Translations under genes and position numbers: made by a program | Assembly: GCF_022869165.1 (NCBI RefSeq) | Contig: NZ_CP094929.1 | Coordinates: forward strand, 1,550,001 to 1,614,000 | Direction: 5' to 3' | Length of the DNA: 64,000 nt | DNA from: Sphaerochaeta associata | Lineage (GTDB): Bacteria; Spirochaetota; Spirochaetia; Sphaerochaetales; Sphaerochaetaceae | In this document: piece by piece, positions 7,459 to 49,105 of the stretch | Numbering within the stretch: position 1 is the first letter of the stretch | Layout of the letters: every line of letters starts with the position of its first letter | The notes under the pieces: generated by a model | Seen by the model: the letters and a program-made list of their open reading frames with translations, nothing else | What the model was told of the DNA's origin: nothing | The model's database searches: none

Positions 7459-10170
7459 ATGGCAGAGAAAAAAACAAAGTATGTCTATTTTTTCGGCTCC
7501 GGTAAGGCGGAAGGAACGGCTCAAATGAAAGAGCTGCTCGGCGGAAAAGGTGCAAACCTCGCCGATATGACCAGCATCGGTCTTCCTGTGCCTCCGGGCT
7601 TTACGATCAGCACCGAAGCGTGTGCGTATTATAGTTCCCATGAGGGAGCCTATCCTCAGGGCCTGAGAGAACAGGTGCTTGAGAACCTTGCCAAGCTTGA
7701 AACCTTGATGGGAGCGAAGCTCGGGGACAACGAAAATCCCTTGCTCGTTTCCGTTCGCAGTGGAGCTGCACAGTCCATGCCCGGTATGATGGATACCATC
7801 CTCAACCTCGGACTCAATCCCACCAGCGTAAAGGCTTTGATTGCGAAGACCAACAATGAACGCTTTGCCTGGGACAGCTATCGCCGTTTCATGCAGATGT
7901 TTGGTGATGTGGTCATGGGTGTTCCCCACCACGAATTTGAGAGTGCCCTGCAGGATGTGAAGGATTCCAAGGGAAAGAGCCTGGACACCGAACTCGACAG
8001 CAAGGACCTGCAGGAAGTAATCGCCCGTTATCAGCGCCTCTATAAGCGCTATACCGGTGAAGAGTTCCCGGTCGACCCGATCGACCAGCTTTTCAAGAGC
8101 ATCAACGCAGTGTTCAAATCCTGGAACAACGAGCGTGCAAACAAGTACCGCCAGATGAATGACATCCGCGGACTGCTGGGAACCGCTGTCAATATCCAGA
8201 GCATGGTGTTCGGCAATATGGGTGACACCAGCGGGACCGGTGTTGCTTTTACTCGTGATCCGTCAACCGGTGAAAACCAGTTCTACGGTGAATACCTGAT
8301 GAATGCCCAGGGCGAGGACGTCGTAGCAGGTATTCGTACTCCCGAGCCCATTGAGACTCTGCGTGCGGTCAACGCTGATGTGTATGACCAACTGGTAGGC
8401 ATCCGTTCCATTTTGGAGAAACACTACAAGGACATGCAGGACATCGAGTTCACCATCCAGGAAGGGAAGCTGTATATGCTGCAGACCAGAAACGGCAAGC
8501 GCACGATTTTCAGCTGGCTCCGTTCTCAGGTCGAGATGGTTGAAGAGGGTTTGATCGATAAGGAAACTGCAATTGCAAGAGTTCCGGCGGGTGAGTTCGG
8601 CAAGCTTTTCGCACCGATTCTCGATGCCAAGTATATTAGAGATAATGGTTTGAATGAAGTGACCCGTGGATTGAATGCTTCCCCCGGAGGTGCTTGCGGC
8701 CAGATATATTTCACCGCCGATAAGGCCGAGGAGATGGCAGCCCTGGGTAAGGACGTTATTCTAGTCCGTGCAGAGACCAGCCCCGAGGATATCGGTGGCA
8801 TGGCCGTTGCAAAGGGCGTAGTGACCTGTCGTGGAGGTATGACCAGTCACGCAGCGGTAGTCGCACGTGGCATGGGTTGTCCGTGTGTCAGCGGTGCAGG
8901 GGACATCCACATCAATGAAGCGAAAAAGACTCTTGAAGTGAATGGCACGAATCTGAGCGAAGGAGACTATATGTCCATCGACGGATTCACCGGTGCTGTC
9001 TACGGTACCAAGATTCCTGTGCGTTCCTCGGAAATCGTCCAGGTGCTCAACGGCCATATGAAGGAGAGTGAATCCAACCTCTTCTACAACTACAAGACCT
9101 TCATGGCATATGTGCAGGAAGTCAAGAGACTTGGCGTGTACACCAATGCCGACACCCCCCACGATACCGAGATGGCTGTGGCCTTTGGTGCTGAAGGAAT
9201 CGGCCTGTGTAGAACCGAACACATGTTCTTCGGTGGAAACCGAATCATGTCGATACGTAAAATGATTCTTGCAAACAATCTGATTGCACGCGAGAAAGCC
9301 CTGTCCGAGTTGCTTCCGATGCAGAGAGGCGATTTCGAGGCGATTTTCCTTGCACTCGAGGGAAGACCCGCTACGATCCGCCTGCTTGATCCCCCGCTTC
9401 ATGAGTTCCTTCCCAACGACCACACCAGCCGCCATGAATTGGCGCTGCAGATGGGTCTGACGGTCGAGGAAGTGGCGCAGAAGTCAAGTGCTCTGCACGA
9501 ATTCAACCCGATGCTCGGCTTCCGTGGCTGTCGTCTGGCCATCATCTATCCTGAGATTCTTCGCATGCAGGTGAGGGCTATTATTGAGGCGGCCATCAAC
9601 GTCAAGCGCAAGGGTGTCGACGTACTTCCCGAGATCATGATTCCCTTGGTAGGCAACTACAAGGAGTTTGTCTTCTGCAAGAAGCATGCACTGGAAGTCA
9701 TTGAGAAGATATTCAATGAGCAGGGCATGAAGGTGCATTACAAGATCGGAACCATGATCGAGGTACCCAGAGCTGCAATTACCGCTGATGAAATCGCCCG
9801 TGAGGCGGAGTTCTTCAGTTTCGGTACGAACGACTTGACCCAGATGACCTGTGGCTTCAGCCGTGACGATGCAGCTTCCTTCCTTGGTCCCTATGTGAAC
9901 GATACTGACAAGCAGTTCTATGACTACGATCCGTTCGCCACCATCGATATCGATGGCGTCGGCAAGCTCGTAGACATGGCTGCCAAGCTTGGTCGTTCCA
10001 CCAATCCGGAGATCAAGTTGGGTATCTGCGGCGAGCATGGCGGTGACCCCAAGACCATTGCATTCTGCGACAAGGTCGGTTTGGATTATGTCTCCTGCTC
10101 TCCGTTCCGCGTTCCCATCGCACGTCTTGCTGCAGCCCAGGCATCAATTGCCGCCAAGAAGGCGAAGTAA
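7459..10170 (+). CDS. ppdK: Pyruvate, phosphate dikinase
   Basis: This 903-residue cytoplasmic enzyme interconverts pyruvate, ATP and phosphate with PEP, AMP and pyrophosphate. In anaerobes it often runs as a PPi-linked replacement for pyruvate kinase. Domain order: nucleotide-binding domain (GGKGANLADM near residue 28), swivelling phosphohistidine domain (GGMTSHAAVVARGMG near 455, with the catalytic His), and a C-terminal TIM barrel (FGTNDLTQMT near 790, and a late CGEHGGD). Length is normal. The ATG at 7459 is chosen because AGGAGT precedes it and the conserved region begins at once; an upstream in-frame start lies inside the promoter. It is a single-gene unit with its own terminator. Confidence 0.98.
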   Translation: MAEKKTKYVYFFGSGKAEGTAQMKELLGGKGANLADMTSIGLPVPPGFTISTEACAYYSSHEGAYPQGLREQVLENLAKLETLMGAKLGDNENPLLVSVRSGAAQSMPGMMDTILNLGLNPTSVKALIAKTNNERFAWDSYRRFMQMFGDVVMGVPHHEFESALQDVKDSKGKSLDTELDSKDLQEVIARYQRLYKRYTGEEFPVDPIDQLFKSINAVFKSWNNERANKYRQMNDIRGLLGTAVNIQSMVFGNMGDTSGTGVAFTRDPSTGENQFYGEYLMNAQGEDVVAGIRTPEPIETLRAVNADVYDQLVGIRSILEKHYKDMQDIEFTIQEGKLYMLQTRNGKRTIFSWLRSQVEMVEEGLIDKETAIARVPAGEFGKLFAPILDAKYIRDNGLNEVTRGLNASPGGACGQIYFTADKAEEMAALGKDVILVRAETSPEDIGGMAVAKGVVTCRGGMTSHAAVVARGMGCPCVSGAGDIHINEAKKTLEVNGTNLSEGDYMSIDGFTGAVYGTKIPVRSSEIVQVLNGHMKESESNLFYNYKTFMAYVQEVKRLGVYTNADTPHDTEMAVAFGAEGIGLCRTEHMFFGGNRIMSIRKMILANNLIAREKALSELLPMQRGDFEAIFLALEGRPATIRLLDPPLHEFLPNDHTSRHELALQMGLTVEEVAQKSSALHEFNPMLGFRGCRLAIIYPEILRMQVRAIIEAAINVKRKGVDVLPEIMIPLVGNYKEFVFCKKHALEVIEKIFNEQGMKVHYKIGTMIEVPRAAITADEIAREAEFFSFGTNDLTQMTCGFSRDDAASFLGPYVNDTDKQFYDYDPFATIDIDGVGKLVDMAAKLGRSTNPEIKLGICGEHGGDPKTIAFCDKVGLDYVSCSPFRVPIARLAAAQASIAAKKAK

Positions 10171-10190
10171 ACGAGCTGAAACAGTATGGT

Positions 10191-10214
10191 ACCCGGGCTT
10201 CGGCCCGGGTTTCC
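10191..10214 (+). terminator. Terminator of ppdK
   Basis: ACCCGGGC-TTCG-GCCCGGGT, a perfect 8-bp stem with a UUCG tetraloop, followed by a short T-rich stretch. Confidence 0.85.
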
Positions 10215-10227
10215 TGTCTTAGGATAT

Positions 10228-10254
10228 AAAAAAAAGCGGTTCCCGAAGGAACCG
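10228..10254 (-). terminator. Terminator of the tRNA-Thr gene
   Basis: On the minus strand a 7-bp stem (10237/8-10243 with 10248-10254) with a 4-base loop is followed by eight T. Confidence 0.85.
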
Positions 10255-10258
10255 TGAG

Positions 10259-10330
10259 AGCCAAAAAAGGGAATTGAACCCTTGACCTGCTCATTACGAG
10301 TGAGCTGCTCTACCCCTGAGCTATTTTGGC
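10259..10330 (-). tRNA. tRNA-Thr (anticodon CGT)
   Basis: A 72-nt cloverleaf. Acceptor GCCAAAA pairs with TTTTGGC, the anticodon loop is CTCGTAA in a GCTCA/TGAGC stem, and the T-loop GTTCAATTC is present. CCA is not encoded. Anticodon CGT reads ACG. Confidence 0.93.
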
Positions 10331-10350
10331 ATGCTAGGTAAAACAGGTGC

Positions 10351-10379
10351 ATTTTACCCGAAAGAGGGAAGAAGGTAAA
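10351..10379 (-). promoter_or_regulatory. Possible promoter of tRNA-Thr
   Basis: On the minus strand TTTACC (10374-10379), 17 bases, TAAAAT (10351-10356), 20 bases before the tRNA. Confidence 0.5.
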
Positions 10380-10467
10380 GATGGTATTTCTGTAAATGTA
10401 GAGACCCAATCTTGCCTTGACCTTTAAGGCTCTTGTCTAGTACGCTTACGACTGAAGAGGGAGTGCA

Positions 10468-10755
10468 TTGAAAACGGATCCATTGTTCAGCCATGCTGTC
10501 GCCCAGGAGGTGGTTGTTTTGCTGAATACTGAAAAACATGGCGTTGGAACCAAAGTGGGATTGAGCTGGCAACCTGATGTTGCCCAGTTCCTGCTGGACA
10601 TGTTTCCAGACGCCTTGGAGTATGGCCTGCAACTCAGTGACATCGCCCCGCTGGTCAGCGAGGATGAGTTTTCGTTCGATGACGAGGACTTTGATTTTCT
10701 TGACGACGATGATTTTCTTGACGAGTTCGACGACGATGAGGATGACTCCCTATGA
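10468..10755 (+). CDS. Small protein with extreme acidic C-terminal tail, coupled to tsaD
   Basis: A 95-residue protein of no family I recognise. Residues 1-62 look like a small folded domain. The last 30 residues are nearly all Asp and Glu with spaced Phe and Leu, made of EDFDFLDDDDF-like repeats. The start is a TTG at 10468 with GAGGGAG upstream. Its stop overlaps the tsaD ATG (ATGA at 10752-10755), so the two are translationally coupled. Acidic tails of this sort often mimic nucleic acid or bind a basic partner; a role near tRNA t6A modification is only a guess. It could be a spirochaete-specific regulator or partner of TsaD. Confidence 0.7.
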   Translation: MKTDPLFSHAVAQEVVVLLNTEKHGVGTKVGLSWQPDVAQFLLDMFPDALEYGLQLSDIAPLVSEDEFSFDDEDFDFLDDDDFLDEFDDDEDDSL

Positions 10756-11771
10756 GAGTTCTAGGGATTGAAACCTCCTGCGATGAATGCTCTGCAGCAG
10801 TCGTGGAGGACGGACGCACCATCCTAAGCAATATCATCGCCACCCAGATTGAACTTCACAAACCGTACGAAGGAGTGGTTCCCGAGCTTGCTTCGCGTTT
10901 GCATACCCAGTGGATCGGTACGGTCGTACAGACCGCACTGCAGAAAGCCGGCCTAGAGCCTCATGACATCGATGCGGTCGCTGTTACCAACCGACCCGGC
11001 CTCCTGGGCTCCTTGTTGGTTGGCTTGAGCTTTGCAAAAGGTTTTTCGGCTTCCCTGGACATTCCTTTCATCACCATCGATCACATCCGTGCACACCTGT
11101 ATGCATCCCAGATTGAGCATCCGCTTGAATATCCGTACTTGGGCCTGTTGGTAAGCGGGGGTCATACGGTCATCTGCAGGGTTGACGGATATGATGCGAT
11201 TGAAGTTCTCGGTACAACCATCGACGACGCCATCGGTGAGGCCTTCGACAAGGTTGCCAAGCATTACGGTTTCGGCTACCCCGGCGGCATAGCCATCGAT
11301 CGGCTTGCGAAGAAAGGCAATCCTCTTGCCTTTCTCTTTCCTGGTCCGACATTGCATTCCAAGGACCACCCCTACGATATTTCCTACAGTGGATTGAAGA
11401 CTGCTGCGATCAACCAACTGGATGCATTTTGGGATGGCAGCAGTGAGAAGAGTCCTGAAAATATTGCCGCTTCGTTCCAGCGCGCCGCTGTGAACATGCT
11501 TATCAAGCGCGTCAGAGCTGCCTTGGAGGAGACCGGACTGAAACGGCTGAGTGCCGGAGGCGGAGTTGCTGCAAACAGCTACCTGAGGCTTGAATTGGAA
11601 GCACTGAAAAAAGGCGGCTATGAAGTTTCCTTTCCATCCCTTAAACTGTGTACGGACAACGGTGCCATGATAGCAGCGTTGGCGTACCGCTATCTGGCCG
11701 ATGGCATACAAGGTGATTACTCCGAGTCGGCAAGTGCTCGGGTGACTGCATTTAAAAAACAATATTCATGA
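10752..11771 (+). CDS. tsaD: tRNA N6-threonylcarbamoyladenosine synthase subunit TsaD
   Basis: TsaD transfers the threonylcarbamoyl group to A37 of tRNAs that read ANN codons, working with TsaB and TsaE. The 339-residue length is normal. Family motifs are present: the N-terminal ASKHA phosphate loop IETSCDECSAAVV, metal-binding histidines in DHIRAH near residue 110, the VSGGHT motif near 135, and the C-terminal LSAGGGVAAN near 265. The partners TsaB and TsaE are not in the window. It overlaps the acidic-tail gene upstream by 4 bases and is followed closely by apt. Confidence 0.96.
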   Translation: MRVLGIETSCDECSAAVVEDGRTILSNIIATQIELHKPYEGVVPELASRLHTQWIGTVVQTALQKAGLEPHDIDAVAVTNRPGLLGSLLVGLSFAKGFSASLDIPFITIDHIRAHLYASQIEHPLEYPYLGLLVSGGHTVICRVDGYDAIEVLGTTIDDAIGEAFDKVAKHYGFGYPGGIAIDRLAKKGNPLAFLFPGPTLHSKDHPYDISYSGLKTAAINQLDAFWDGSSEKSPENIAASFQRAAVNMLIKRVRAALEETGLKRLSAGGGVAANSYLRLELEALKKGGYEVSFPSLKLCTDNGAMIAALAYRYLADGIQGDYSESASARVTAFKKQYS

Positions 11772-11782
11772 CGAGAGGCCCT

Positions 11783-12316
11783 ATGGACGCACATTACGAT
11801 TTGGACAGTGTAATTCGAAAGGTACCTAATTTCCCCAAGGAGGGAGTCCTCTACTACGATATCACCGGTATTCTTGCAGTGCCTGAAGCATTTCAGTATT
11901 GCATCGATCGGATGCATCAGCTTTGTGAGCATCGTAGAATCGATGCCATTGCTGCAGTAGAAGCGCGTGGCTTCATCTTTGCCGCCCCGCTTGCCCAGCG
12001 CCTTGGCCTGCCGTTGATTCTTGTGCGCAAGATGGGCAAGCTTCCCAACAAGGTGTTTACCAAGAGTTTCGAGCTGGAATACGGCTGTGATGTAGTCTGT
12101 GTCCAGGAAGTGGATATCCAAAAGGATAGCCGCGTACTGTTTGTCGATGACCTCATCGCCACCGGCGGTACTCTGAAAGCCGCTGCATCCATGTTCGAGG
12201 AGCACGGTGCGAAGGTTGAGGGCTTTATGGGTGTCATCGGACTGCCGTTTCTCAATTACGACAAGGCCCTTGCGCCCTATCCGGTGGAAGTGCTGCAGCT
12301 CTATCACGGTGAGTAG
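11783..12316 (+). CDS. apt: Adenine phosphoribosyltransferase
   Basis: Apt salvages adenine to AMP using PRPP. The 177-residue protein has the type I phosphoribosyltransferase PRPP loop VLFVDDLIATGGT near residue 115-128 and the N-terminal VPNFPKEGVLYYDIT block typical of Apt. The ATG at 11783 matches the usual N-terminus and has AGAGG just upstream at short spacing. An alternative ATG at 11768 overlaps the tsaD stop (ATGA) and would add five residues. The gene is the last of the acidic protein-tsaD-apt unit. Confidence 0.93.
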   Translation: MDAHYDLDSVIRKVPNFPKEGVLYYDITGILAVPEAFQYCIDRMHQLCEHRRIDAIAAVEARGFIFAAPLAQRLGLPLILVRKMGKLPNKVFTKSFELEYGCDVVCVQEVDIQKDSRVLFVDDLIATGGTLKAAASMFEEHGAKVEGFMGVIGLPFLNYDKALAPYPVEVLQLYHGE

Positions 12317-12336
12317 GAATAATTTTCCCCATCCCC

Positions 12337-12365
12337 TTGACAAAGCATACGCATTTCCGTATTCT
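12337..12365 (+). promoter_or_regulatory. Promoter of the tRNA-Gln/tRNA-Glu unit
   Basis: TTGACA (12337-12342), 17 bases, TATTCT (12360-12365), 18 bases before the first tRNA. Confidence 0.75.
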
Positions 12366-12383
12366 ACCACAGGATTTTGAAAT

Positions 12384-12454
12384 TGGGATGTAGTGTAATG
12401 GTAACACTGCAGATTCTGGTTCTGCCTTTGGGGGTTCGAATCCCTCCATCCCAG
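12384..12454 (+). tRNA. tRNA-Gln (anticodon CTG)
   Basis: A 71-nt cloverleaf: acceptor TGGGATG/CATCCCA, anticodon stem GCAGA/TCTGC with loop TTCTGGT, T-loop GTTCGAATC. CCA is not encoded. Confidence 0.94.
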
Positions 12455-12459
12455 GCATC

Positions 12460-12531
12460 GGTTCCTTCGTCTAATGGTTAGGACAGGAGATTCTCAGTCT
12501 CTAAATAGGGGTTCGATTCCCCTAGGAACTA
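12460..12531 (+). tRNA. tRNA-Glu (anticodon CTC)
   Basis: A 72-nt cloverleaf five bases after tRNA-Gln: acceptor GGTTCCT/AGGAACT (first pair G-U), anticodon stem GGAGA/TCTCT with loop TTCTCAG, T-loop GTTCGATTC. CCA is not encoded. Confidence 0.93.
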
Positions 12532-38935: not shown

Positions 38936-40422
38936 ACGGGCGATATACATTGTTCAGAGCACATGATATCCGGGGAAAGCGAGAGGCCTTTGCAGGCACT
39001 GAAGGTGAGCGCCTCGGTGCTGCTCTGGCCCTCTATTTCATTCATACCCTCAAGGTAATGAGGGTCGTTCTTGCCCGTGATGCAAGACTTGGAGGAGCTG
39101 AATTACAGCAACAGCTTCTTTCAGTGTTCTGCAAAGCCGGGCTTGAAGTGCTTCTGGAACCGAACCCCATAGGAACATGCCAGTTCTATTATGCCTGTCT
39201 TTCCCACATCGATGCAGCCGCTGTCATGGTGACGGCAAGTCATAATCCCGCATCATATCTGGGTATGAAACTTGTAGGACCGAATCTGCAGGTGATAAGC
39301 ATGGGTCATGGTCCTGCAGGAGGTCTTGAGCTGATACAGCAGCTCTACGAAGCGAATGAGCCTATCAACGAAATCGGCAGGCAGGGCAGCGTCCATATGT
39401 TGGACACGCTCGGTGCGTTCATCACGTATTCGGCGGAGCTTGCAAATGTCGGCTCTCGTGATGTCAGCGGCCTGTCGGTCGGTTGTGACTTCCAGCATGG
39501 GAGCGCAGGATGTGCGATAGGGCGGGCTCTTGGAGAACTTGGTGTTCACTACTCGGCACTCCACCTGATTCCCAACGGCAATTTTCCCCAAGGTGATCCC
39601 AACCCGGGCATTGAAGCAAGCATGCAGGATGCAAAGGCCTTCCTTGCTGTCAAACCGCTGCCCTTGTTTTTCGCCTATGACGGGGATGGGGACCGCATGG
39701 ACGTATTGTACAAAGGACGGCAACTCTCTCCTTCCTTGGTATTGCTCAGCATTGCCGATGAACTTGTCAATCTAAACAAGGACGGGTGCGAACCCACCTT
39801 CCTGTTCGATGTGAAAGCCTCCCCACCGTTGCTTTTTGAAATGCGGAGAAGGGGGTATAAGGTCGCTATTGTACAACCTGGGCATTCTGCGGTCAAGCAA
39901 CGCATGAACAGCAGTCGGACGGACTTCCTCCTGTGCGCAGCCGAGGAGTCGGCGCACTACTATTATCAACTCAAGGGGATGGACGGCACCCGGTACGCCT
40001 CGGAGAACACACTCTTCTATACGCTGTTGATTCTCAAGGCATACAAGAAGAATCCCTCTCTGTTTGAGACGGCCCGAGCCTTGCAGGATGCCTTTTACCG
40101 CGAACGTGAATGGTCGGTCTCTATTACGGATGAGCAAGACCGTTCGGCCTTCCTTGAGAAGGTTCAGCTTTATTTGCTGTCAAAGGGTGCAAAGGCGGTG
40201 TCGCATGACAGCCGGGGCAACAGTCTCGGAGCGACCCTCTACCGCTATGGTCTTGATGAAGGGGCGACGCTGAGCGCATCCTGGTTCCAAGTATTCCAGC
40301 GACTGAGCCAAAGCGAGGACAACCTGCTGCGTTTCGAAGTCCTCGCCTCCGATCAGGGACTGGGGCGATCGATAGCTGAAGCTGTCAAGGCTTTGCAATC
40401 TGGGTTTCATCAAACCAGGTGA
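38932..40422 (+). CDS. Phosphohexomutase (phosphomannomutase/phosphoglucomutase family)
   Basis: A 496-residue alpha-D-phosphohexomutase that moves phosphate between C1 and C6 of a hexose. It has the four-domain layout: N-terminal FRAHDIRG, catalytic phosphoserine loop VTASHNPASYLGMKL near residue 102, metal loop DGDGDR near 248, sugar-binding AAEESAHYYY near 343 (usual form GEESGH). Substrate choice between mannose and glucose phosphates is not clear; the altered sugar loop makes prediction unsafe. The ATG overlaps the importer ATPase stop, so it belongs to that operon. It converges on zwf with a 38-base overlap. Confidence 0.88.
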   Translation: MNGRYTLFRAHDIRGKREAFAGTEGERLGAALALYFIHTLKVMRVVLARDARLGGAELQQQLLSVFCKAGLEVLLEPNPIGTCQFYYACLSHIDAAAVMVTASHNPASYLGMKLVGPNLQVISMGHGPAGGLELIQQLYEANEPINEIGRQGSVHMLDTLGAFITYSAELANVGSRDVSGLSVGCDFQHGSAGCAIGRALGELGVHYSALHLIPNGNFPQGDPNPGIEASMQDAKAFLAVKPLPLFFAYDGDGDRMDVLYKGRQLSPSLVLLSIADELVNLNKDGCEPTFLFDVKASPPLLFEMRRRGYKVAIVQPGHSAVKQRMNSSRTDFLLCAAEESAHYYYQLKGMDGTRYASENTLFYTLLILKAYKKNPSLFETARALQDAFYREREWSVSITDEQDRSAFLEKVQLYLLSKGAKAVSHDSRGNSLGATLYRYGLDEGATLSASWFQVFQRLSQSEDNLLRFEVLASDQGLGRSIAEAVKALQSGFHQTR

Positions 40423-41758
40423 AATGGTTGTCCTTGGCAAGCTGGCTGGCAAAACGAGGCAGGGTCCTGATCGGATAGACTTCACCCACCAAGTCGCTTT
40501 CAAGCATCGGTTCCACAATTCTCCAGGACTCGGTGATTTCCTTCATGGTGGGAAAGAGGCTCTTGTCGGCGATCAGGATCTTTTGGACTATCTGCTCATA
40601 GGCTTCGGGTGTGTTTGCTCCAAAGGTCTCGCTCTGATTGAATCGGAACCGAACCGGTTTTGACTTCCAACTGGTGTTCGGCATCTTCAAATTCATGCTG
40701 ATATCGATGGTAAGTTCAGGATGGATGGTGATGATCACTCCGTTCTCTGCGATGCTTTGGTCGTGCATCACCTCCTTGGTGGTGTTCTTGAACTTAATGT
40801 AGATCAGTGACTTGGCTTCCTTCTGCATCTTGCCTGTGCGTACATAGATGGGGATGTCGGCAAAGTAATAGGTGTTGACAAACAGCTTCAGTGCTGCATA
40901 AGTGGGGGTCTGCACCACATGTCCGCTGTTAACCCCAAGCGACTCATACCTTCCCATATGAAACTCCCTGACGGGGGAGATGGAGCGCAGCACTTTTTCC
41001 TTCTCCACTGAAATGTCCTCCGGGGAGAGGCTGGCCGGCTCACTCATGGTAAGGTAGGTGACAATCTGCATGATGTGGTTCTGGATGGTATCACGTACTA
41101 CGCCGATTTTTTCATAAAAGCCCAGGCGCTGGTCAACCCCGTGTGTTTCATCAAAAATAATCTGAATCGATTCAATGGTGCGATTATCCCAGATTCTGCG
41201 GATGATGTCGTTGTGAAAACGCATGAGCAGTAAATTCTGCATGAACTCCTTGCCAAGGTAGTGGTCTACACGGAATATTTCCTTGTCCGTGAATGCTTTT
41301 TCAAGAATTTCATTGTAACGGAGTGCGCTTTCCAAGTCGAAACCGAAGGGTTTCTCCACTACGATTTTCTTGGTGAGCGTACAGTAGCAGTCAAGACTTG
41401 CATCAATCGCCTTGATCTGGTGAATCGCATCCTCATACAGAGAAGGCTGCAGAGCCAGATAGTAGATGAACTCCACTTCATCACTTCCCTCGATCATGCT
41501 CCTCAGCTTCTTCGTGAGAATTGATACTGCATCAGTATCAGCCATGTCGTAGTACAGGTAGTCGAGGTTGTCTGTAAAGGACGCTGGTGCAGAAGGAGAT
41601 ACGGAATTCAGGAGAAATTCCTCACGGGTGGTATAACGTCGTCCAAGTGCCAGGACGGAGAATGAGTACTGCTTTTCCATGAGGTTCTGATAGGCGGGGT
41701 ACAGTTTTTTCAGAGCAAGGTCTCCGGTACCGCCGTATTGGATGATGATTCGTTTCAT
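40385..41758 (-). CDS. zwf: Glucose-6-phosphate dehydrogenase
   Basis: Zwf oxidises glucose 6-phosphate to 6-phosphogluconolactone with NADP or NAD, the entry to the pentose phosphate pathway. The 457-residue protein has the coenzyme loop YGGTGDLALKKL near residue 8 and the active-site RVDHYLGKE near 165, and KKIVVEKPFG near 130. It starts 7 bases after pgl, with which it forms an operon. Its last codons overlap the phosphohexomutase gene on the other strand. Confidence 0.95.
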   Translation of the reverse strand: MKRIIIQYGGTGDLALKKLYPAYQNLMEKQYSFSVLALGRRYTTREEFLLNSVSPSAPASFTDNLDYLYYDMADTDAVSILTKKLRSMIEGSDEVEFIYYLALQPSLYEDAIHQIKAIDASLDCYCTLTKKIVVEKPFGFDLESALRYNEILEKAFTDKEIFRVDHYLGKEFMQNLLLMRFHNDIIRRIWDNRTIESIQIIFDETHGVDQRLGFYEKIGVVRDTIQNHIMQIVTYLTMSEPASLSPEDISVEKEKVLRSISPVREFHMGRYESLGVNSGHVVQTPTYAALKLFVNTYYFADIPIYVRTGKMQKEAKSLIYIKFKNTTKEVMHDQSIAENGVIITIHPELTIDISMNLKMPNTSWKSKPVRFRFNQSETFGANTPEAYEQIVQKILIADKSLFPTMKEITESWRIVEPMLESDLVGEVYPIRTLPRFASQLAKDNHFTWFDETQIAKP

Positions 41759-41765
41759 GGCCTTC

Positions 41766-42398
41766 TTACTCCTTCAAGTCTGTAATGATCAGGGTCGAAA
41801 ACCGCTTGTCCCTGAAGAATGCGCAGGGAAGCGTGTCAGCTTGCTCTTTCCCACCGAGAAGCCTTGCAAGAGCATCCCGCTTTCCCTCTCCGAAAAACAA
41901 CATGACTATCCTTGACTGCGCCGCAAGTGTCGAAAATCCGTAAAAGGTGAACGTGGCCCGCCTGTTCGGCGGTTTTGGACTCCGGTCTATGACTTTGACC
42001 TGAACCTTCTCCTGTTCGGGCCAGGAGCCGGGGAACAGTGATGCAATATGGCCGTCTTCACCTACACCCAAGTATACCCTATCAAAGAGGGAAGGCGGTA
42101 GCTCTTCTCCCGGAACGGGAATGGAAAGCTGGGACAGGGCAAAGGCATCCGTCAGGCCGGCTTGCACAAGCGTGTCCAGATTATGCTCGCCTTCAAGCCG
42201 CTCGTCGACCAGATACAGACGAATTCGTTTCTGGATGTCCTTGTCAACAGAGAGCAACCCTTTGACGATGTACTGTGCACTTCTTCCCCCAGGAAGAGCG
42301 ATGCAAAGAGTACCTGCTTTTTGCACCGAGAGTTGGACAATGTCCTGCTCTACAAGCTGTGATAGGTCTTGTGGATGTTCAATGCGTTCTATTCTCAT
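41766..42398 (-). CDS. pgl: 6-phosphogluconolactonase
   Basis: Pgl hydrolyses the lactone made by Zwf. The 210-residue protein belongs to the NagB-like DevB type: ALPGGRSAQYIVKGL near residue 33, YLVDERLEGEHN near 60 and LGVGEDGHIASLFPG near 108. Length is slightly below the usual 230-260. It lies between the dehydratase-like gene upstream (48 bases) and zwf. Confidence 0.93.
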   Translation of the reverse strand: MRIERIEHPQDLSQLVEQDIVQLSVQKAGTLCIALPGGRSAQYIVKGLLSVDKDIQKRIRLYLVDERLEGEHNLDTLVQAGLTDAFALSQLSIPVPGEELPPSLFDRVYLGVGEDGHIASLFPGSWPEQEKVQVKVIDRSPKPPNRRATFTFYGFSTLAAQSRIVMLFFGEGKRDALARLLGGKEQADTLPCAFFRDKRFSTLIITDLKE

Positions 42399-42446: not shown

Positions 42447-43703
42447 CTATTCTCCACTTTTTCTGCCATCAAGGTTCTCTTTTGCGATGGAAAGCATGAG
42501 TTTGATGCGATTCTCCTGATTGACATGGGTTGCGGATGGGTCGTAATCGATGGGTACTATGTTCGCTTCAGGGGCACGTTCAGTGACCGCCCTGATCATG
42601 CCTTTTGCACAAATATGGTTGGGAAGGCAGCCAAAGGGTTGGGTGCAGACGATATTGGTGTAGCCTGCATGCACCAAATCGAGCATCTCGGCGGTCAAAA
42701 GCCAGCCTTCTCCCATCTTCACCCCGTAGTCGATCAGGCCGTCATTGAGTTGCTTCATTTCGGTATAGGGAATGGGCACGGTAAACCTGCCGGATTTCTG
42801 CATTGCCTCGCGTGCCATGTTCTCGACCTTGAAGAGTTGCTTGAGCACAAGCTGGGTGATGATGCTGCTGATCCTGCGTCCTCCATAGTAGCTCCTGTCG
42901 ATGATGGCATTGTCCGCCCCATAATAGAGAAATCCCATCATGGATGGTACCATGACCTCGCATCCCTGTCCTTCGAGATACGCCTGGAGGTTGTTATTGC
43001 CCAATGGCGAGTATTTCATATAGATTTCGCCGACAATACCGACTTTGATCTTGGTCTCTTTCCTGACCTCAATTGCGGCAAACTGCTTGCAAATCTCATT
43101 GAGATTGCGTTTCATTGCATACCCGATATAGCCCCTGTTATGGGCGAATCGCTCGCTGAGGTAACTTGTCCAGGTTTTGACCAGGGCATCGGCTTCGCCC
43201 TTGTTCACTTCGTACGGTCGTACCTGATTGGAAAGGGCCATCAGCAGGTCTCCGTAGACAAATGCGCTGTACGCCTGCAACAGCATGAAAAAGGTGAGCT
43301 TGAAGCCGGGATTCTTCTCCATCCCCTTGAGGTTCAAGCTGATTACCGGGATGTGGGAGAGTTGACACTTTTGCAGCGCCTTGCGCAGCAAAAACAGGTA
43401 GTTGCTCGCCCTGCAGCCCCCTCCGGTCTGGGTGATGACCAAAGCAATCTTGTTTGTGTCGAAATTGCCGTGCTTGACCGCGTCGATGAGTTGGCCGATG
43501 ACGAGCTGGGCTGGATAGCAGATGTCATTGTGTACATATCTGAGGCCTTCGCGGATGACGTTCGGCCCCTGGTTCTCAAGCAGGACGACCTTGTAACCGT
43601 GATTGGCAAAGACCTCCTTGGCGATGTTGAAATGAACCGGCGACATGTTGGGTATGAGGATGGTATAATCCTTTTTCATTGCTTTGGTGAATACGGTACT
43701 CAT
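42447..43703 (-). CDS. 2-hydroxyacyl-CoA dehydratase-like protein, second half of a split giant protein
   Basis: A 418-residue protein that resembles the dehydratase-component part of large activase/dehydratase-like proteins. Conserved cysteines that could bind an iron-sulfur cluster are seen in NDICYPAQ near residue 62, GGGCRASN near 97, and TQPFGCLPNHICAKG near 365. Its ATG overlaps the stop of the activase gene (ATGA), so the two are made together. In other anaerobes, as I recall, both parts are fused in one chain of about 1400 residues. The substrate is unknown; it need not be a hydroxyacyl-CoA. Confidence 0.8.
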   Translation of the reverse strand: MSTVFTKAMKKDYTILIPNMSPVHFNIAKEVFANHGYKVVLLENQGPNVIREGLRYVHNDICYPAQLVIGQLIDAVKHGNFDTNKIALVITQTGGGCRASNYLFLLRKALQKCQLSHIPVISLNLKGMEKNPGFKLTFFMLLQAYSAFVYGDLLMALSNQVRPYEVNKGEADALVKTWTSYLSERFAHNRGYIGYAMKRNLNEICKQFAAIEVRKETKIKVGIVGEIYMKYSPLGNNNLQAYLEGQGCEVMVPSMMGFLYYGADNAIIDRSYYGGRRISSIITQLVLKQLFKVENMAREAMQKSGRFTVPIPYTEMKQLNDGLIDYGVKMGEGWLLTAEMLDLVHAGYTNIVCTQPFGCLPNHICAKGMIRAVTERAPEANIVPIDYDPSATHVNQENRIKLMLSIAKENLDGRKSGE

Positions 43704-46627
43704 TGGCAGCCCGTCTCCCCGATTGCTGCAAGCAGGCTGCGGATCCTGATTTTCACCGCTCCAAGGTTTGCAATCTCATCGATTTTTATCTGGGTGTAGA
43801 TTTTTTTCGTCTGCCTGAGGATGTCCCTGATCTCATCACTGGTGACTGCATCGAGTCCGCAGCCGAAGGAAACCAGTTGGATGATCTGCATATCGGCCTG
43901 GGTCGTCACATACCGGGCGGCATCATACATCCTTGCATGATAGGTCCATTGGTTGAGCACCGTACGCTTTTGTTTGGGTACCAAATGACTGATTCCATCC
44001 TCGCTGAGCACTGCACAGTTGCACTGCAGCAGCAGGCTGTCGATGCCGTGGTTGACTTCACCATCGACATGGTAGGGCCGTCCTGCAAGCACCATGATCG
44101 GCCATCCACGCTTTCTCGCCTCATTGATGATGATAAGGCTTTGCGCCCTCACAGCCTTCTGATACTTCTTCAGCGCCTCGTAACCGAGTTTGCATGCCAG
44201 CCTCACTTCCTTCTTGTCAAGAATGAAATGCTTGGAGAGAATTTCATGCAGGCGCAATGGCAAAAAACGCTCATCGGCAAGACTCAGGTAGTCGCTGATG
44301 AAAAGCACCTTCTGCTCAAGAAGGGCCGGCATATTGTGTCTGAGCACCTCGGGGTAGTAGGCGACAACAGGACAGTTGAAGTGGTTGTCGCCCTTTTCCT
44401 CCTTGAGATTATAGCTCGAGCAAGGGTAGAATACGGTCTCAACACCTGCATCTATCAACTGTTGGATATGTCCGTGCATCAACTTCGCCGGATAACAGAT
44501 GGTGTCGCTGCTGATCGTCGATTGCCCCCTGAGGTAGGTCTGTCTGGTGGATGGCTCGGATACTACAACCTCGAAGCCCAGACTGGAGAGGCATGCATGC
44601 CAGAAGGGCAGCTGTTCGTAGTAGGAGAGCTGCAAAGGAAGGCCGATCCTTCCACGTTTATTTCTTTCGCTTGCAAGGCCGGCCAGGTATTGCTGTTTGA
44701 AGGCATAAAGGTTGAGCAATTCCGGATTGCTGACAAAGCTGTCGGGTCGTACGATGCGGTCGCACTTGTTCCCGCTGATCAGCTTTCGATCCGAGTCGAA
44801 GCTGTTGATGGTAAGCAGACAGGCGTTGGTGCATCCCTTACAGTGGACGGTACGCGTTCGGTGGGAGAATGAGGAGAGCTTGGCAAGTGAGAGGGTGGTC
44901 GTAGCCTTATGGTCTTTATCGTGCTGCTGTTTTGCATGCAGTGCGCAACCATAGGCTCCCATCAGTCCCGCCTCATCGACTCGGATGACTTCGCTTCCGA
45001 GTTCCATTTCAAAGGAACGAAGCACTGCGTCGTTGAGAAAGGTGCCCCCCTGCACAACGATGTGTCTTCCCAACAGGGATGGGTCCGTCGTCCGGATAAC
45101 CTTGTACAGCGCATTCTTCACCACACTGATGGCGAGCCCTGCAAAAATGTCTGCAACGCTGGCCCCATCCTTCTGAGCCTGCTTGACCGAGCTGTTCATG
45201 AAAACCGTACACCGACTGCCGAGGTCGACGGGATTCCTCGCTTTCAGGGCAAGCTGTGCCGCCTGCTGGGATGAGTATCCAAGAGCATTGGAGAAGGTCT
45301 GCAGGAACGAACCGCATCCGGACGAGCACGCCTCGTTCAGGAAGATGTCGTCGATTACTCCGTCCACGATCTTGAAGCATTTGATGTCCTGACCGCCTAT
45401 GTCGATGATGAAGTCCACCTCAGGCAGAAAGGTATGTGCACTTTTGTAGTGTGCCATCGTCTCAACCAGTGAATATTCGAAATCAAAGGCGTTTTTAATC
45501 AAGAGTTCTCCGTAGCCTGTACTGCAGGATTTCACCAGCTGAATATCGGGATAGGTTGTGAGGAAGCTGGTCAGAAACTCTTTCACCGCTTGTACCGGGT
45601 TACCGTTGTTCTGTTGATAGCGGCTGTACAGAAGCCGGCCTTCGGTATCGATGATGCATGCTTTCACCGTGGTTGAACCGGCATCCACTCCAAGGAAGGC
45701 TTGGCCTTTGTAGCTGTGCGGGTCCGCTTTTTGAAGCTTTGCCTTCTGGTGGCGGGCACTGAATGCCTGCCACTGTTCTTGGTCGTCGAAGAGCGCCGGA
45801 ATGGAGGTGAACGCCTTGTCTGCACGATAATGCTCAAGCTGATAGACCAGGTCCGAAAGCGAAAAAGAAGTTTCTTCCTTGGCCAAGGCTGTTCCCAAGG
45901 CCACAAAGTACAGGGAGTTTTCCGGACAGATTCCCTGGAGGTTCAACGTTTCGTCGAACGCCTTGCGCAGTGAGGAAAGGAAGGTCAGAGGTCCGCCAAG
46001 GTACACCACCTGTCCGGTAATTGGACGGCCTTGGGCAAGCCCTGCTATGGTCTGGTTTACCACCGATTGGAGAACCGAGAGAGCTATGTCGGCCTTGTCT
46101 GCTCCTTGGTTTATAAGTGGTTGGACATCACTTTTTGCAAAGACACCACAACGCGAAGCAATGGTATAGCTCTGTTTTGCCTGATGAGCCAGCACATCCA
46201 TTTGGTCTTGGTCGACATGTAGCAGGCTGGCCATCTGGTCGATGAATGAACCGGTACCGCCAGCGCACGTACCATTCATCCTCACCTCCATGTTCTTTCC
46301 TAAAAACAGGATTTTTGCATCCTCCCCACCGAGTTCGATTACTACGTCGGTGGAAGGAAGGTAGTGCTGGATGGCGATACGGGTGGCATAGACTTCCTGG
46401 ACGAACGGGAGGTTCAGCTGTTGGGAAAGCCCCATCCCTGCTGAACCTGAAAGCGAAAGACAGACCTTTGTCTGTCCAAGGCTCTCAAGCAGTGGAGTAA
46501 GCATTTGGACAGCGGTTTGGGGGATTTGTGAATAGTGTCTGCGGTACTCGTGATGAACAAGGTTCAGCTGTTCATCGAGCACGACACATTTCATGGTAGT
46601 GGAGCCAACATCCAAGCCGATTTTCAC
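43700..46627 (-). CDS. Tandem BcrAD/BadFG-type ATPase (dehydratase activase-like) with DUF2229
   Basis: A 975-residue protein with two ASKHA ATPase domains in tandem. The first starts KIGLDVGSTTMKC, with cluster cysteines in GTCAGGTGSFID near residue 120 and SRCGVFAKSD. The second starts FLGVDAGSTTVKA near 305, with EACSSGCGSFLQ and GSRCTVFMNSS. A DUF2229-like domain follows, with the HCKGCTNAC cysteines near 610. Activases of this family use ATP to drive low-potential electrons from a [4Fe-4S] cluster into a partner. The GTG at 46627 follows GGAGG by 7 bases; an upstream TTG or GTG is less likely. thiI lies 82 bases upstream. Confidence 0.88.
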   Translation of the reverse strand: MKIGLDVGSTTMKCVVLDEQLNLVHHEYRRHYSQIPQTAVQMLTPLLESLGQTKVCLSLSGSAGMGLSQQLNLPFVQEVYATRIAIQHYLPSTDVVIELGGEDAKILFLGKNMEVRMNGTCAGGTGSFIDQMASLLHVDQDQMDVLAHQAKQSYTIASRCGVFAKSDVQPLINQGADKADIALSVLQSVVNQTIAGLAQGRPITGQVVYLGGPLTFLSSLRKAFDETLNLQGICPENSLYFVALGTALAKEETSFSLSDLVYQLEHYRADKAFTSIPALFDDQEQWQAFSARHQKAKLQKADPHSYKGQAFLGVDAGSTTVKACIIDTEGRLLYSRYQQNNGNPVQAVKEFLTSFLTTYPDIQLVKSCSTGYGELLIKNAFDFEYSLVETMAHYKSAHTFLPEVDFIIDIGGQDIKCFKIVDGVIDDIFLNEACSSGCGSFLQTFSNALGYSSQQAAQLALKARNPVDLGSRCTVFMNSSVKQAQKDGASVADIFAGLAISVVKNALYKVIRTTDPSLLGRHIVVQGGTFLNDAVLRSFEMELGSEVIRVDEAGLMGAYGCALHAKQQHDKDHKATTTLSLAKLSSFSHRTRTVHCKGCTNACLLTINSFDSDRKLISGNKCDRIVRPDSFVSNPELLNLYAFKQQYLAGLASERNKRGRIGLPLQLSYYEQLPFWHACLSSLGFEVVVSEPSTRQTYLRGQSTISSDTICYPAKLMHGHIQQLIDAGVETVFYPCSSYNLKEEKGDNHFNCPVVAYYPEVLRHNMPALLEQKVLFISDYLSLADERFLPLRLHEILSKHFILDKKEVRLACKLGYEALKKYQKAVRAQSLIIINEARKRGWPIMVLAGRPYHVDGEVNHGIDSLLLQCNCAVLSEDGISHLVPKQKRTVLNQWTYHARMYDAARYVTTQADMQIIQLVSFGCGLDAVTSDEIRDILRQTKKIYTQIKIDEIANLGAVKIRIRSLLAAIGETGCQ

Positions 46628-46709
46628 CGAGAAGCCTCCGAATACACAAACCATACGTAATTTTAAGGAGTTGGTACAGTGAGCCTTCTCCCGTTTTAGA
46701 CACTATATG

Positions 46710-47912
46710 TCAATTTGTCTGAATACGCAGTTTCCCATCGGGTCCAAAGTCAAACACCTGGGCAGTTTTAATTGCCTGCTCCAATAACGGCTCGATTTCC
46801 ATCTGTACATAATGTTGTGTCTCTATCTCCTTGTCAGGACGCACCAACGGGTGTCTGGGACTGAAAATAACACAACAATCCTCGTAAGGAAGGATGGAAG
46901 TCTCGTAGGTTCCGATTTTCTTCGCCAGATTCATGATCTCCTGCTTGTCCATGCCGACCAAAGGTCTGAGCACCAGCTGCTCGCTCATGCTGTCGGTGAA
47001 GGACATGCTTTCCAGCGTTTGGCTGGCTACCTGGCTGAGAGCTTCCCCTGTGACGATGCACATTGCCTCCTGTTGTACGGAAATGGCGTTGGCAACCTTC
47101 ATCATGGCAGCTCGGAACATCAAGGTGGTCTCATCTTCTTGGCTGTGTTGCTTGATCCAAAGCTGAGCCTCGGTGAAGTGTACGACATGCAGTCGTGTTC
47201 CCTGTAGATAGGGGGCGATCAGGGAAGCCAGCGTCTTTACCTTCTCCAAGGCCAATTCACTGGTATACGGGTAGGCATGAAAATAGATGCACTCCATTTT
47301 CAATCCGCGTTGGGCCATTCGGTAGGCGGCCACCGGGCTGTCTATTCCCCCTGAGAGCAGGAGCATGCCCTTGCCCGCTGTAGTGACGGGTAGTCCTCCA
47401 GGGCCGCTCTTTGCAGAAGTGAAGAGGTATGCCTTGTCCCGTATCTCGCAATTGATCGTCATATCGGGATTCTTCACATCGACGGTAAGATCGGGGTATT
47501 CACTGTGTACCACCTCCCCGAGGATGCAGTCTATCTGGTAGCTGTTAAGTTCAAAATTCTTGTCCGCCCGCTTGGTGATCGACTTGAAGGTTCCCACCCC
47601 TTTGGAAAAGGGTTCGTCCTGCAACAAAACTCGTGCCGTCTCCTTGATTACCTCGATGTCCTTTGCGCAACGGAGGCATCGAGAGTACCCGACAACACCG
47701 AAGGTGGTGCTGAAGGCCATTTCGACGGTTTCCCTGGGGCAACTGTTCTCGATTTCGAAGAAAATCCGGCCTTTCTGTTTAGAAACCTGGGTACGGTATC
47801 CCTTGAGTTTGCTCTTGATGTTGTTCTTGAGTCGCTTCTCGAAAAAATCGCGGTTCAATCCTTTGAGGGAGATTTCTCCCAATCTGACTAAATACAGGGT
47901 AGAGTCGTTCAT
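46710..47912 (-). CDS. thiI: tRNA 4-thiouridine synthase ThiI
   Basis: ThiI adenylates U8 of tRNA and transfers sulfur to give 4-thiouridine; in many bacteria it also serves thiamine synthesis. The 400-residue protein has the N-terminal ferredoxin-like and THUMP domains (about residues 1-165) and a PP-loop ATPase with LLLSGGIDSPVA near 180, plus the conserved cysteines YEDCCVIFSP near 345. The C-terminal rhodanese domain of E. coli ThiI is absent, as in many bacteria where a dedicated NifS-like protein supplies sulfur. The nifS gene upstream overlaps its start by 4 bases. Confidence 0.96.
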   Translation of the reverse strand: MNDSTLYLVRLGEISLKGLNRDFFEKRLKNNIKSKLKGYRTQVSKQKGRIFFEIENSCPRETVEMAFSTTFGVVGYSRCLRCAKDIEVIKETARVLLQDEPFSKGVGTFKSITKRADKNFELNSYQIDCILGEVVHSEYPDLTVDVKNPDMTINCEIRDKAYLFTSAKSGPGGLPVTTAGKGMLLLSGGIDSPVAAYRMAQRGLKMECIYFHAYPYTSELALEKVKTLASLIAPYLQGTRLHVVHFTEAQLWIKQHSQEDETTLMFRAAMMKVANAISVQQEAMCIVTGEALSQVASQTLESMSFTDSMSEQLVLRPLVGMDKQEIMNLAKKIGTYETSILPYEDCCVIFSPRHPLVRPDKEIETQHYVQMEIEPLLEQAIKTAQVFDFGPDGKLRIQTN

Positions 47913-49048
47913 GCGTGCTCCAAATTAAGGTGTGTGATGGTTAGTGCCAAGGCCTCGGCGTCATGTTCCGTCGTATCCTTCGACAATGAGATGCGGATGC
48001 TGTTCTTTGCAAGCTGTGGCGAAAAAGCCATGGCAGACAGCACCCCTTGTGATTTCTGCTTGGCGTTGTTCGAGCAGGCGGATCCGCTGGAAACGCAGAA
48101 TCCCTGGTCGAAGAGAAGGCGGGTGAACACTTCGCTGGGAAGGGTTGGATGGGATAGGGTGAGAATGTAGGGAGAGCAGTTCTCCGGCGGGGAGAGGACG
48201 GGCAGGAATGTGAGCCGATCCCTCAGATACCTATTCAGTGAACTCACTTGCTCAAAATTTTCCTCCAGGTTGCTGAAGGCCTCCTTGATGGCTTGATGCA
48301 TAGCTGCTATTCCGCCCAGGTTCTCCGTCCCCGGTCGCAGTCCCTGTTCCTGGGCGCCTCCGCGGGAGAGGCTCTCTATACCGGCGTTGGTGTTGTACAG
48401 CATTCCGACGCCTCGGGGTCCGTGAAGCTTGTGTGCACTGAAGGCGGCACTATCCACACCCATGCTTTTCAAGTCGAACCTGATTTTGCCCAAGGCCTGG
48501 GTCGCATCGGTGTGGAAATGGATCTTGCGGTTGTTATGCCCTGCTTCAAAGGTACGGACAACCTCGACTAAACCACCGACATCCTGAATCGAGCCGGTGA
48601 CATTGTTGACCAGCATGATGCTCACCATCCGTGTTTCACTGCTCAAGGCCCGTTGCAAATCCTCTTTCTGTACAAAACCCCTGGGGGCCGGAAGAACAGT
48701 CACCTTCCATCCCAATTGCTTGAGCAGCCTGGAATACTCGGAGACCGAAGGGTGCTCAATGCCGCTGAGGATGACCTGGCCCTTGCGTTCCTTCCAGATC
48801 AGACTGCTGAGGATGATGGCATTTGCCTCGGTGGCCCCGCTGGTGAAGGTAAGGGCGGCTGCATCCACGCCAAGCAGGCCTGCGATATCTTCCCTGGTCT
48901 GCTGAAGGAAGGCTTTGGCTTCTCTTCCTTCCTGATGAAGGGATGATGGATTGCCTCTATAATGCTCAACCGCCTTCGTATAAGCATCCAGTGCGGCTGC
49001 GCTTATGCTGGTGGTGGCTGCATTGTCAAAATATCGTATCTCGTGCAT
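47909..49048 (-). CDS. Cysteine desulfurase (NifS/IscS-like), ThiI partner
   Basis: A 379-residue PLP enzyme that takes sulfur from cysteine as a persulfide. Motifs: RYFDNAATT at the start, the PLP lysine in SAHKLHGPRG near residue 200, and the active cysteine in SSGSACSNNAKQK near 325. It is coupled to thiI by an ATGA overlap, so it most likely feeds sulfur to ThiI. It may also help make the iron-sulfur clusters of the activase downstream. The ATG at 49048 has no ribosome-binding site but sits 8 bases after a promoter -10; other in-frame starts at 49057 and 49096 are possible. Confidence 0.92.
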   Translation of the reverse strand: MHEIRYFDNAATTSISAAALDAYTKAVEHYRGNPSSLHQEGREAKAFLQQTREDIAGLLGVDAAALTFTSGATEANAIILSSLIWKERKGQVILSGIEHPSVSEYSRLLKQLGWKVTVLPAPRGFVQKEDLQRALSSETRMVSIMLVNNVTGSIQDVGGLVEVVRTFEAGHNNRKIHFHTDATQALGKIRFDLKSMGVDSAAFSAHKLHGPRGVGMLYNTNAGIESLSRGGAQEQGLRPGTENLGGIAAMHQAIKEAFSNLEENFEQVSSLNRYLRDRLTFLPVLSPPENCSPYILTLSHPTLPSEVFTRLLFDQGFCVSSGSACSNNAKQKSQGVLSAMAFSPQLAKNSIRISLSKDTTEHDAEALALTITHLNLEHA

Positions 49049-49055
49049 GGCCCAC

Positions 49056-49084
49056 ATTGTGCGACAATGCAAGGATTTTTGCAA
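49056..49084 (-). promoter_or_regulatory. Possible promoter of nifS, start point at the ATG
   Basis: On the minus strand TTGCAA (49079-49084), 17 bases, CACAAT (49056-49061), then seven bases and the ATG. Each box matches consensus at four of six positions. Confidence 0.4.
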
Positions 49085-49105
49085 GCACGGCTTCATAAAT
49101 GGTCC

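Follow-up and report, generated by a model that had tools for sequence, protein, structure and literature searches.

A split gene pair of Sphaerochaeta associata that probably encodes an anaerobic plasmalogen synthase (PlsA and PlsR)

The genes plsA and plsR encode reductases that convert an acyl ester to an alk-1'-enyl ether, according to a review by Goldfine (PMC9702350). Plasmalogens were formed in Escherichia coli that carried plsA of Enterococcus faecalis, Lactococcus cremoris or Bifidobacterium longum subsp. suis, or the plsA-plsR region of Clostridium perfringens, and C. perfringens has two genes where the other plsA species have one (PMC12838417). Glycerol ester reductase (Ger) is a PlsA-like enzyme that makes saturated ethers, and two PF01869 domains go with validated Ger; the same source states that sequence alone cannot in general assign a protein to PlsA or to Ger (PMC13274423). 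We analyzed here two overlapping genes on the minus strand at positions 42447-46627 of a 64,000-nucleotide stretch of Sphaerochaeta associata DNA (the whole stretch is called the window below). A preliminary description of these genes had left their physiological substrate open. We think, with a probability of roughly 0.8, that the pair is a split, oxygen-sensitive anaerobic plasmalogen synthase composed of PlsA and PlsR. By analogy, it probably converts an ester bond of membrane lipids to an ether bond. The enzyme class, the type of cofactor and the broad reaction are well supported; the vinyl-ether product and the head group of the lipid are tentative.

The large, plsA-like gene (43700-46627, 975 residues) and the small, plsR-like gene (42447-43703, 418 residues) overlap by the stop/start sequence ATGA at 43700-43703, just as the preliminary description had stated. 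In the Pfam search, the large protein matched BcrAD_BadFG twice and DUF2229 once, in agreement with the two tandem activase domains plus DUF2229 described before, and the small protein gave a partial DUF2229 match of 35.3 bits (cut-off, 29.4). The layout computed for the large protein consists of activase 1 at about residues 3-247, activase 2 at 312-565, a linker with four cysteines at 596-622, and DUF2229 at 660-878 within a first reductase half, which reaches the C terminus. The small protein is the second reductase half and aligns collinearly with the C-terminal portion of PlsA proteins of the fused form. That is, the order Act1, Act2, Red1 and Red2 (names from PMC12838417) extends over about 1400 residues, as in C. 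perfringens PlsA/PlsR and in PlsA of E. faecalis, Lactococcus and Bifidobacterium, and is here distributed over two genes; the spirochete lineage sets the window pair apart from the characterized PlsA/PlsR. The two-gene form resembles that of C. perfringens; there, however, a short non-coding gap separates plsA from plsR (PMC12838417). The overlap in the window suggests that the translation of the two genes may be coupled.

Named relatives were taken from plasmid and phage collections, of which several records look like host DNA. The matching records numbered 36 in the plasmid collection and 13 in the phage collection, and 10 and 11 of these, respectively, covered at least 80% of the query; eight records were used (L040 to L047). 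On a contig that bears the label Enterococcus phage Efs 1-1-1 lies the gene for a fused protein of 1415 residues, which is collinear with the window pair, with the cluster cysteines conserved and with identities of 48% to the large and 40% to the small protein. Its open reading frame (ORF) has 4248 bp when the start is set one codon inside the listed ORF, and the same length is given for the plsA gene from strain K-4 of E. faecalis, with which E. coli formed plasmalogens (PMC12838417). A divergent TetR gene adjoins this ORF, and the TetR regulator EF1326 adjoins EF1327 (PMC9702350); among the neighbors in the window, no TetR gene was noticed when the ORF list was read by eye. The split form was also found in Fusobacterium animalis and Subdoligranulum variabile, whose large proteins showed identities of 50% and 56%, respectively. 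Among the records with plsA are some named Enterococcus or Listeria phages (L040 among them) and several "plasmids" of megabase size, which resemble host chromosome. The scans of viral contigs gave no relatives of the pair. Judging from this comparison, the pair belongs to an enzyme class already published in close relatives, where the substrate question has been answered: the closest characterized relatives are plasmalogen synthases.

For the phylogenetic analysis we used 40 rows, namely 14 split pairs with their proteins joined and 26 fused proteins. Only eight of the pairs are from the genus of the window; the remaining congeners that had been fetched, and additional DUF2229 proteins found among the relatives, did not enter the tree. 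The 14 split pairs formed one clade with a support of 100 in the Shimodaira-Hasegawa-like approximate likelihood ratio test. Its sister group was made up of seven fused rows, and the two together again had a support of 100; the seven came from E. faecalis, Listeria, Collinsella, Acetoanaerobium and three further spirochetes. The pair thus groups with the plasmalogen synthase of a tested species through E. faecalis, in a tree that held no C. perfringens pair. A second tree of 38 rows, built with a better model and without the long-branch rows L077 and L047, recovered both sister clades, with several inner forks open. More distant fused proteins, with identities of 35-41% and 25-27%, made further clades. 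The sampled split clade spans Spirochaetota, Fusobacteriota and Bacillota, and Subdoligranulum, a member of Bacillota, grouped inside it with two spirochetes of the family of the window (support, 99 and 100). The position of Subdoligranulum points to gene transfer between phyla, and one gene split followed by such transfer can explain the single split clade.

The tree also bears on the possibility that the pair is a Ger, which would use the same machinery to form a saturated alkyl ether instead of the vinyl ether of plasmalogens. The Ger enzymes of Thermotoga maritima (Tmari_0479) and Desulfatibacillum alkenivorans are homologous to PlsA and are reported to carry two PF01869 domains (PMC13274423); the window protein has two as well. 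However, two PF01869 stretches were also found in all seven relatives scanned, including that of E. faecalis, a plasmalogen maker, so that the domain count does not separate Ger from PlsA in the copy of Pfam used. Moreover, the window pair grouped with E. faecalis and not with a fused clade farther away, to which Haliovirga belongs and which may or may not consist of Ger enzymes. The clade shared with E. faecalis leads us to favor PlsA, and we regard it as unlikely that the pair is a Ger.

The fold of the first reductase half was examined with a model of 401 residues, which was built from three close sequences and was of middling quality (mean predicted local distance difference test score [pLDDT], 61.7; predicted template modeling score, 0.67). 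In VIA-align, the ten best entries were all proteins of the benzoyl-CoA reductase/2-hydroxyacyl-CoA dehydratase (BCR/HAD) family, with Z scores of 10.9 to 13.4, 276-295 aligned residues and root-mean-square deviations of 3.9-4.4, and the next entry had a Z score of 9.6 over 117 residues. In Foldseek, all seven matches with E values up to 0.001 belonged to the same family. The second half matched the first in a profile comparison over 69 columns (E value, 1.3e-5; probability, 81%), whereas nothing useful came of comparing the profiles of the two halves with those of five BCR/HAD proteins. The PlsR model, made with AlphaFold2 and likewise from three close sequences, had a pLDDT of 46 and is uninformative at such quality, so the lack of a BCR/HAD entry among the 50 matches listed against the PDB says nothing.

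Activase 2 matched the activators of hydroxyisocaproyl-CoA and hydroxyglutaryl-CoA dehydratase, and both of its cysteines aligned with those of 1hux and 4eht; activase 1 matched the delta subunit of 3-methylbenzoyl-CoA reductase. Together with the Pfam results and the fold of the first half, these matches bear out the ATP-driven BCR/HAD-type machinery proposed in the preliminary description. The window pair shares the activase family and the fold of this half with HadBC/HgdAB and the activator HgdC. It differs from them in that two activases and one reductase half lie in one chain, and in that HGD-D (PF06050) was matched neither in the whole genome (2 of 14 controls matched) nor by either of the two proteins in Pfam. 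Owing to the lack of an HGD-D match in the genome, a plain hydroxyacyl-CoA pathway was rejected, as the preliminary description had anticipated; consistent with its remark on the surroundings, no CoA transferase or fatty-acid gene was seen when the ORF list of 34-56 kb was read by eye.

Conserved cysteines were counted in the alignment of the 40 rows. C121/C160 and C434/C473 of the activases were present in all 40, and because each activase domain keeps two cysteines, the two domains probably form an internal dimer around one cluster. In the first reductase half, C711, C752 and C923 were found in 40 of 40 rows, and in the second half C62, C97 and C359 were found in 39 of 40. The [4Fe-4S] cluster of BzdO is bound by three cysteines (95, 128 and 380), and the [8Fe-9S] cluster of BzdN has six cysteine ligands (PMC11971306). 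The conserved set of three in each half fits a [4Fe-4S] cluster of the BzdO type, as assumed for PlsA/PlsR, better than an [8Fe-9S] cluster. Between activase 2 and the first half, the linker carries the motif C596-x2-C-x3-C-x18-C622, which mostly precedes the stretch matched to the BCR/HAD fold. All four of its cysteine columns are occupied in 39 of the 40 rows; it may form an extra Fe-S center or a metal site of another kind.

The preliminary description had drawn attention to double-cubane proteins, and the pair could be imagined as a double-cubane-cluster reductase of small molecules. The first half does have its fold in common with the double-cubane cluster protein (DCCP), YjiM and class I benzoyl-CoA reductase: its model aligned with DCCP (7yyl, 7yzm and 6eno) at Z scores of 11.5 to 12.8, approximately as well as with hydroxyisocaproyl-CoA dehydratase (13.4). 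In addition, two cysteines are conserved more locally, so that the count within the PlsA group is not exactly three: C736 of the first half occurs in all 14 split rows and in 2 of the 7 near fused rows, and C353 of the second occurs in 23 of the 24 rows that make up the nearer clades. Across all rows, however, only three cysteines per half are near-universal, against the six that [8Fe-9S] needs in BzdN (PMC11971306), and 11 of the 383 residues of E. coli YjiM, which is annotated as a double-cubane protein, are cysteines. The double-cubane reading was rejected on this count of three versus six, and we consider it highly improbable.

The action of a plasmalogen synthase of this kind can be considered as follows, with the clusters, the use of ATP, the lipid substrate and the vinyl-ether product taken from characterized homologues. 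The two activase domains would form an internal pseudo-dimer that binds ATP and holds a single [4Fe-4S] cluster at the interface. Hydrolysis of the ATP would drive low-potential electrons onto the [4Fe-4S] clusters of both reductase halves, that is, the C-terminal part of PlsA and PlsR. These halves would then act on a completed diacyl lipid and reduce its ester carbonyl at sn-1, and the loss of water after this reduction would give the vinyl ether, namely the plasmalogen.

Several points weigh against this assignment. The E. faecalis sequence was taken from an unverified "phage" contig and not from strain K-4, and the PlsA assignment rests on E. faecalis and its kin. The two PF01869 domains are linked to the alkyl-ether-making Ger (PMC13274423), although E. 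faecalis PlsA has two too. The structural evidence is limited by the middling model of the first half and the unusable one of PlsR, and no family member turned up among solved structures when PlsR was searched by sequence or by profile. Phosphatidylserine decarboxylase gave no match in the genome (6 of 14 controls matched), and for this reason phosphatidylethanolamine, the best-studied substrate, may be absent from the organism. Finally, lipid data for the genus Sphaerochaeta were not found in the literature search, in which PMC3739177 and PMC9201399 were of no help. C16:0 dimethyl acetal is reportedly present in S. associata.

On the side of the plasmalogen synthase, dimethyl acetals are the usual trace of plasmalogens. 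They are recorded for Spirochaeta africana (PMC4511686). Two CDP-alcohol phosphatidyltransferase matches were found in the genome, and the substrate may be phosphatidylglycerol or glycolipids, the phosphatidylserine decarboxylase route being the only one to phosphatidylethanolamine that was searched. We also entertain, as a doubtful possibility, that the enzyme runs mainly on phosphatidylglycerol or glycolipids and that electrons enter via the linker CxxCxxxC-x18-C as a further Fe-S center of the PlsA/Ger superfamily. A search for PF10520, the aerobic plasmalogen desaturase, matched no control and so does not show the absence of a desaturase. Four PF01869 matches in the genome were above the cut-off, two of them in the large protein. 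The other two are kinase-like proteins of the BadF/BadG family beside genes of MurQ-type N-acetylmuramic acid 6-phosphate etherases (L033 and L034), and both best match the N-acetylglucosamine kinase family, below its cut-off. Two further PF01869 matches lie below the cut-off.

The neighbors of the pair all lie on the minus strand, in the order nifS, thiI, plsA, plsR, pgl and zwf. Upstream are the gene of a cysteine desulfurase of the NifS/IscS family (47909-49096) and thiI for tRNA uracil 4-sulfurtransferase (46710-47912); downstream are pgl (41766-42398) and zwf (40385-41758). This arrangement is that given in the preliminary description; in NCBIfam, thiI was above its cut-off, and the other three matched their own families below the model cut-offs. 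In a survey of 17 congeners, thiI was next upstream in all 16 whose contigs reach that far, the cysteine desulfurase lay beyond it in 14 of 14 such congeners, and pgl was next downstream in 16 of 17. In two other genera of the family (L063 and L065), nifS-thiI lay beside the pair, with no match to pgl or zwf; for a third genus (L064), nothing matched in the roughly 7.6 kb upstream, and the contig of a fourth (L062) stops short of the region.

This linkage would suit a role in sulfur chemistry with ThiI and the cysteine desulfurase, for example the reduction of 4-thiouridine or a persulfide, and 4-thiouridine-5'-monophosphate desulfidase has been called, in part, a member of the family (PMC11971306). 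A search for thiI covered 12 genomes, of which 11 had given no match to DUF2229. The gene was matched in ten (not in G008 and G010), and eight of these were fetched, with G023 and G034 left out. In two of the eight (G004 and G013), plsA pieces sit at contig ends beside thiI, so the absence of DUF2229 there is an assembly effect. At all six remaining loci, however, nifS-thiI was kept with no match to plsA or plsR, and in the congener G022 (L137) pgl-zwf directly follows thiI without the pair. Furthermore, neither nifS nor thiI was found in the fetched flanks, about 5-6 kb, of seven named non-spirochete carriers (L040-L046). Since nifS-thiI stays without the pair and the outside carriers show neither gene, the linkage reflects a gene order handed down in the lineage, in which the pair was lost or gained at a single site, and the sulfur-transfer genes are not judged to be functional partners. 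The partnership was rejected on these grounds, and we give it almost no credence. The operon link of the preliminary description is thus better described as lineage synteny, and its interpretation as a whole was partly supported.

As for the reading frames, the large ORF, which ends at 43700, has two possible starts, ATG 46654 (984 residues) and GTG 46627 (975 residues). A Shine-Dalgarno-like GGAGG at 46635-46639 lies 7 bases upstream of the GTG, and most congeners have the earliest start codon of this ORF at the GTG position or one codon before it; for these reasons the 975-residue start seems the better one. Identities to the fetched congeners were 71-88% for the large and 77-92% for the small protein, excluding L059, whose plsA is broken, and this conservation indicates that both frames are real and not due to chance. 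In L059 (genome G019, about 8331-12523), plsA lies in separate reading-frame pieces and plsR is whole, which is either a decayed gene or an assembly error. Promoter-like sites (9 versus a mean of 6.4 in shuffled sequence; standard deviation, 2.8) and terminator-like sites (9 versus 8.7) were near the shuffle level.

DUF2229 was present in 44 of 60 relatives and in 203 of 294 genomes drawn from the phylum, paralogues included. A scan of genome contigs with one protein gave two loci, and the nearest named record was a Spirochaetales metagenome-assembled genome with 88% identity. Further DUF2229 giants of about 1400-1500 residues were seen in spirochetes, sometimes two or three per genome (L072-L075 and L079-L085; L069, L076-L078, L086 and L087), and some of these further clades could be alkyl-ether makers. 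The several related enzyme clades in spirochetes could help to show how makers of vinyl ethers differ from makers of alkyl ethers. The apparent mystery enzyme is turned into a testable prediction, that is, this group of spirochetes should make ether lipids anaerobically.

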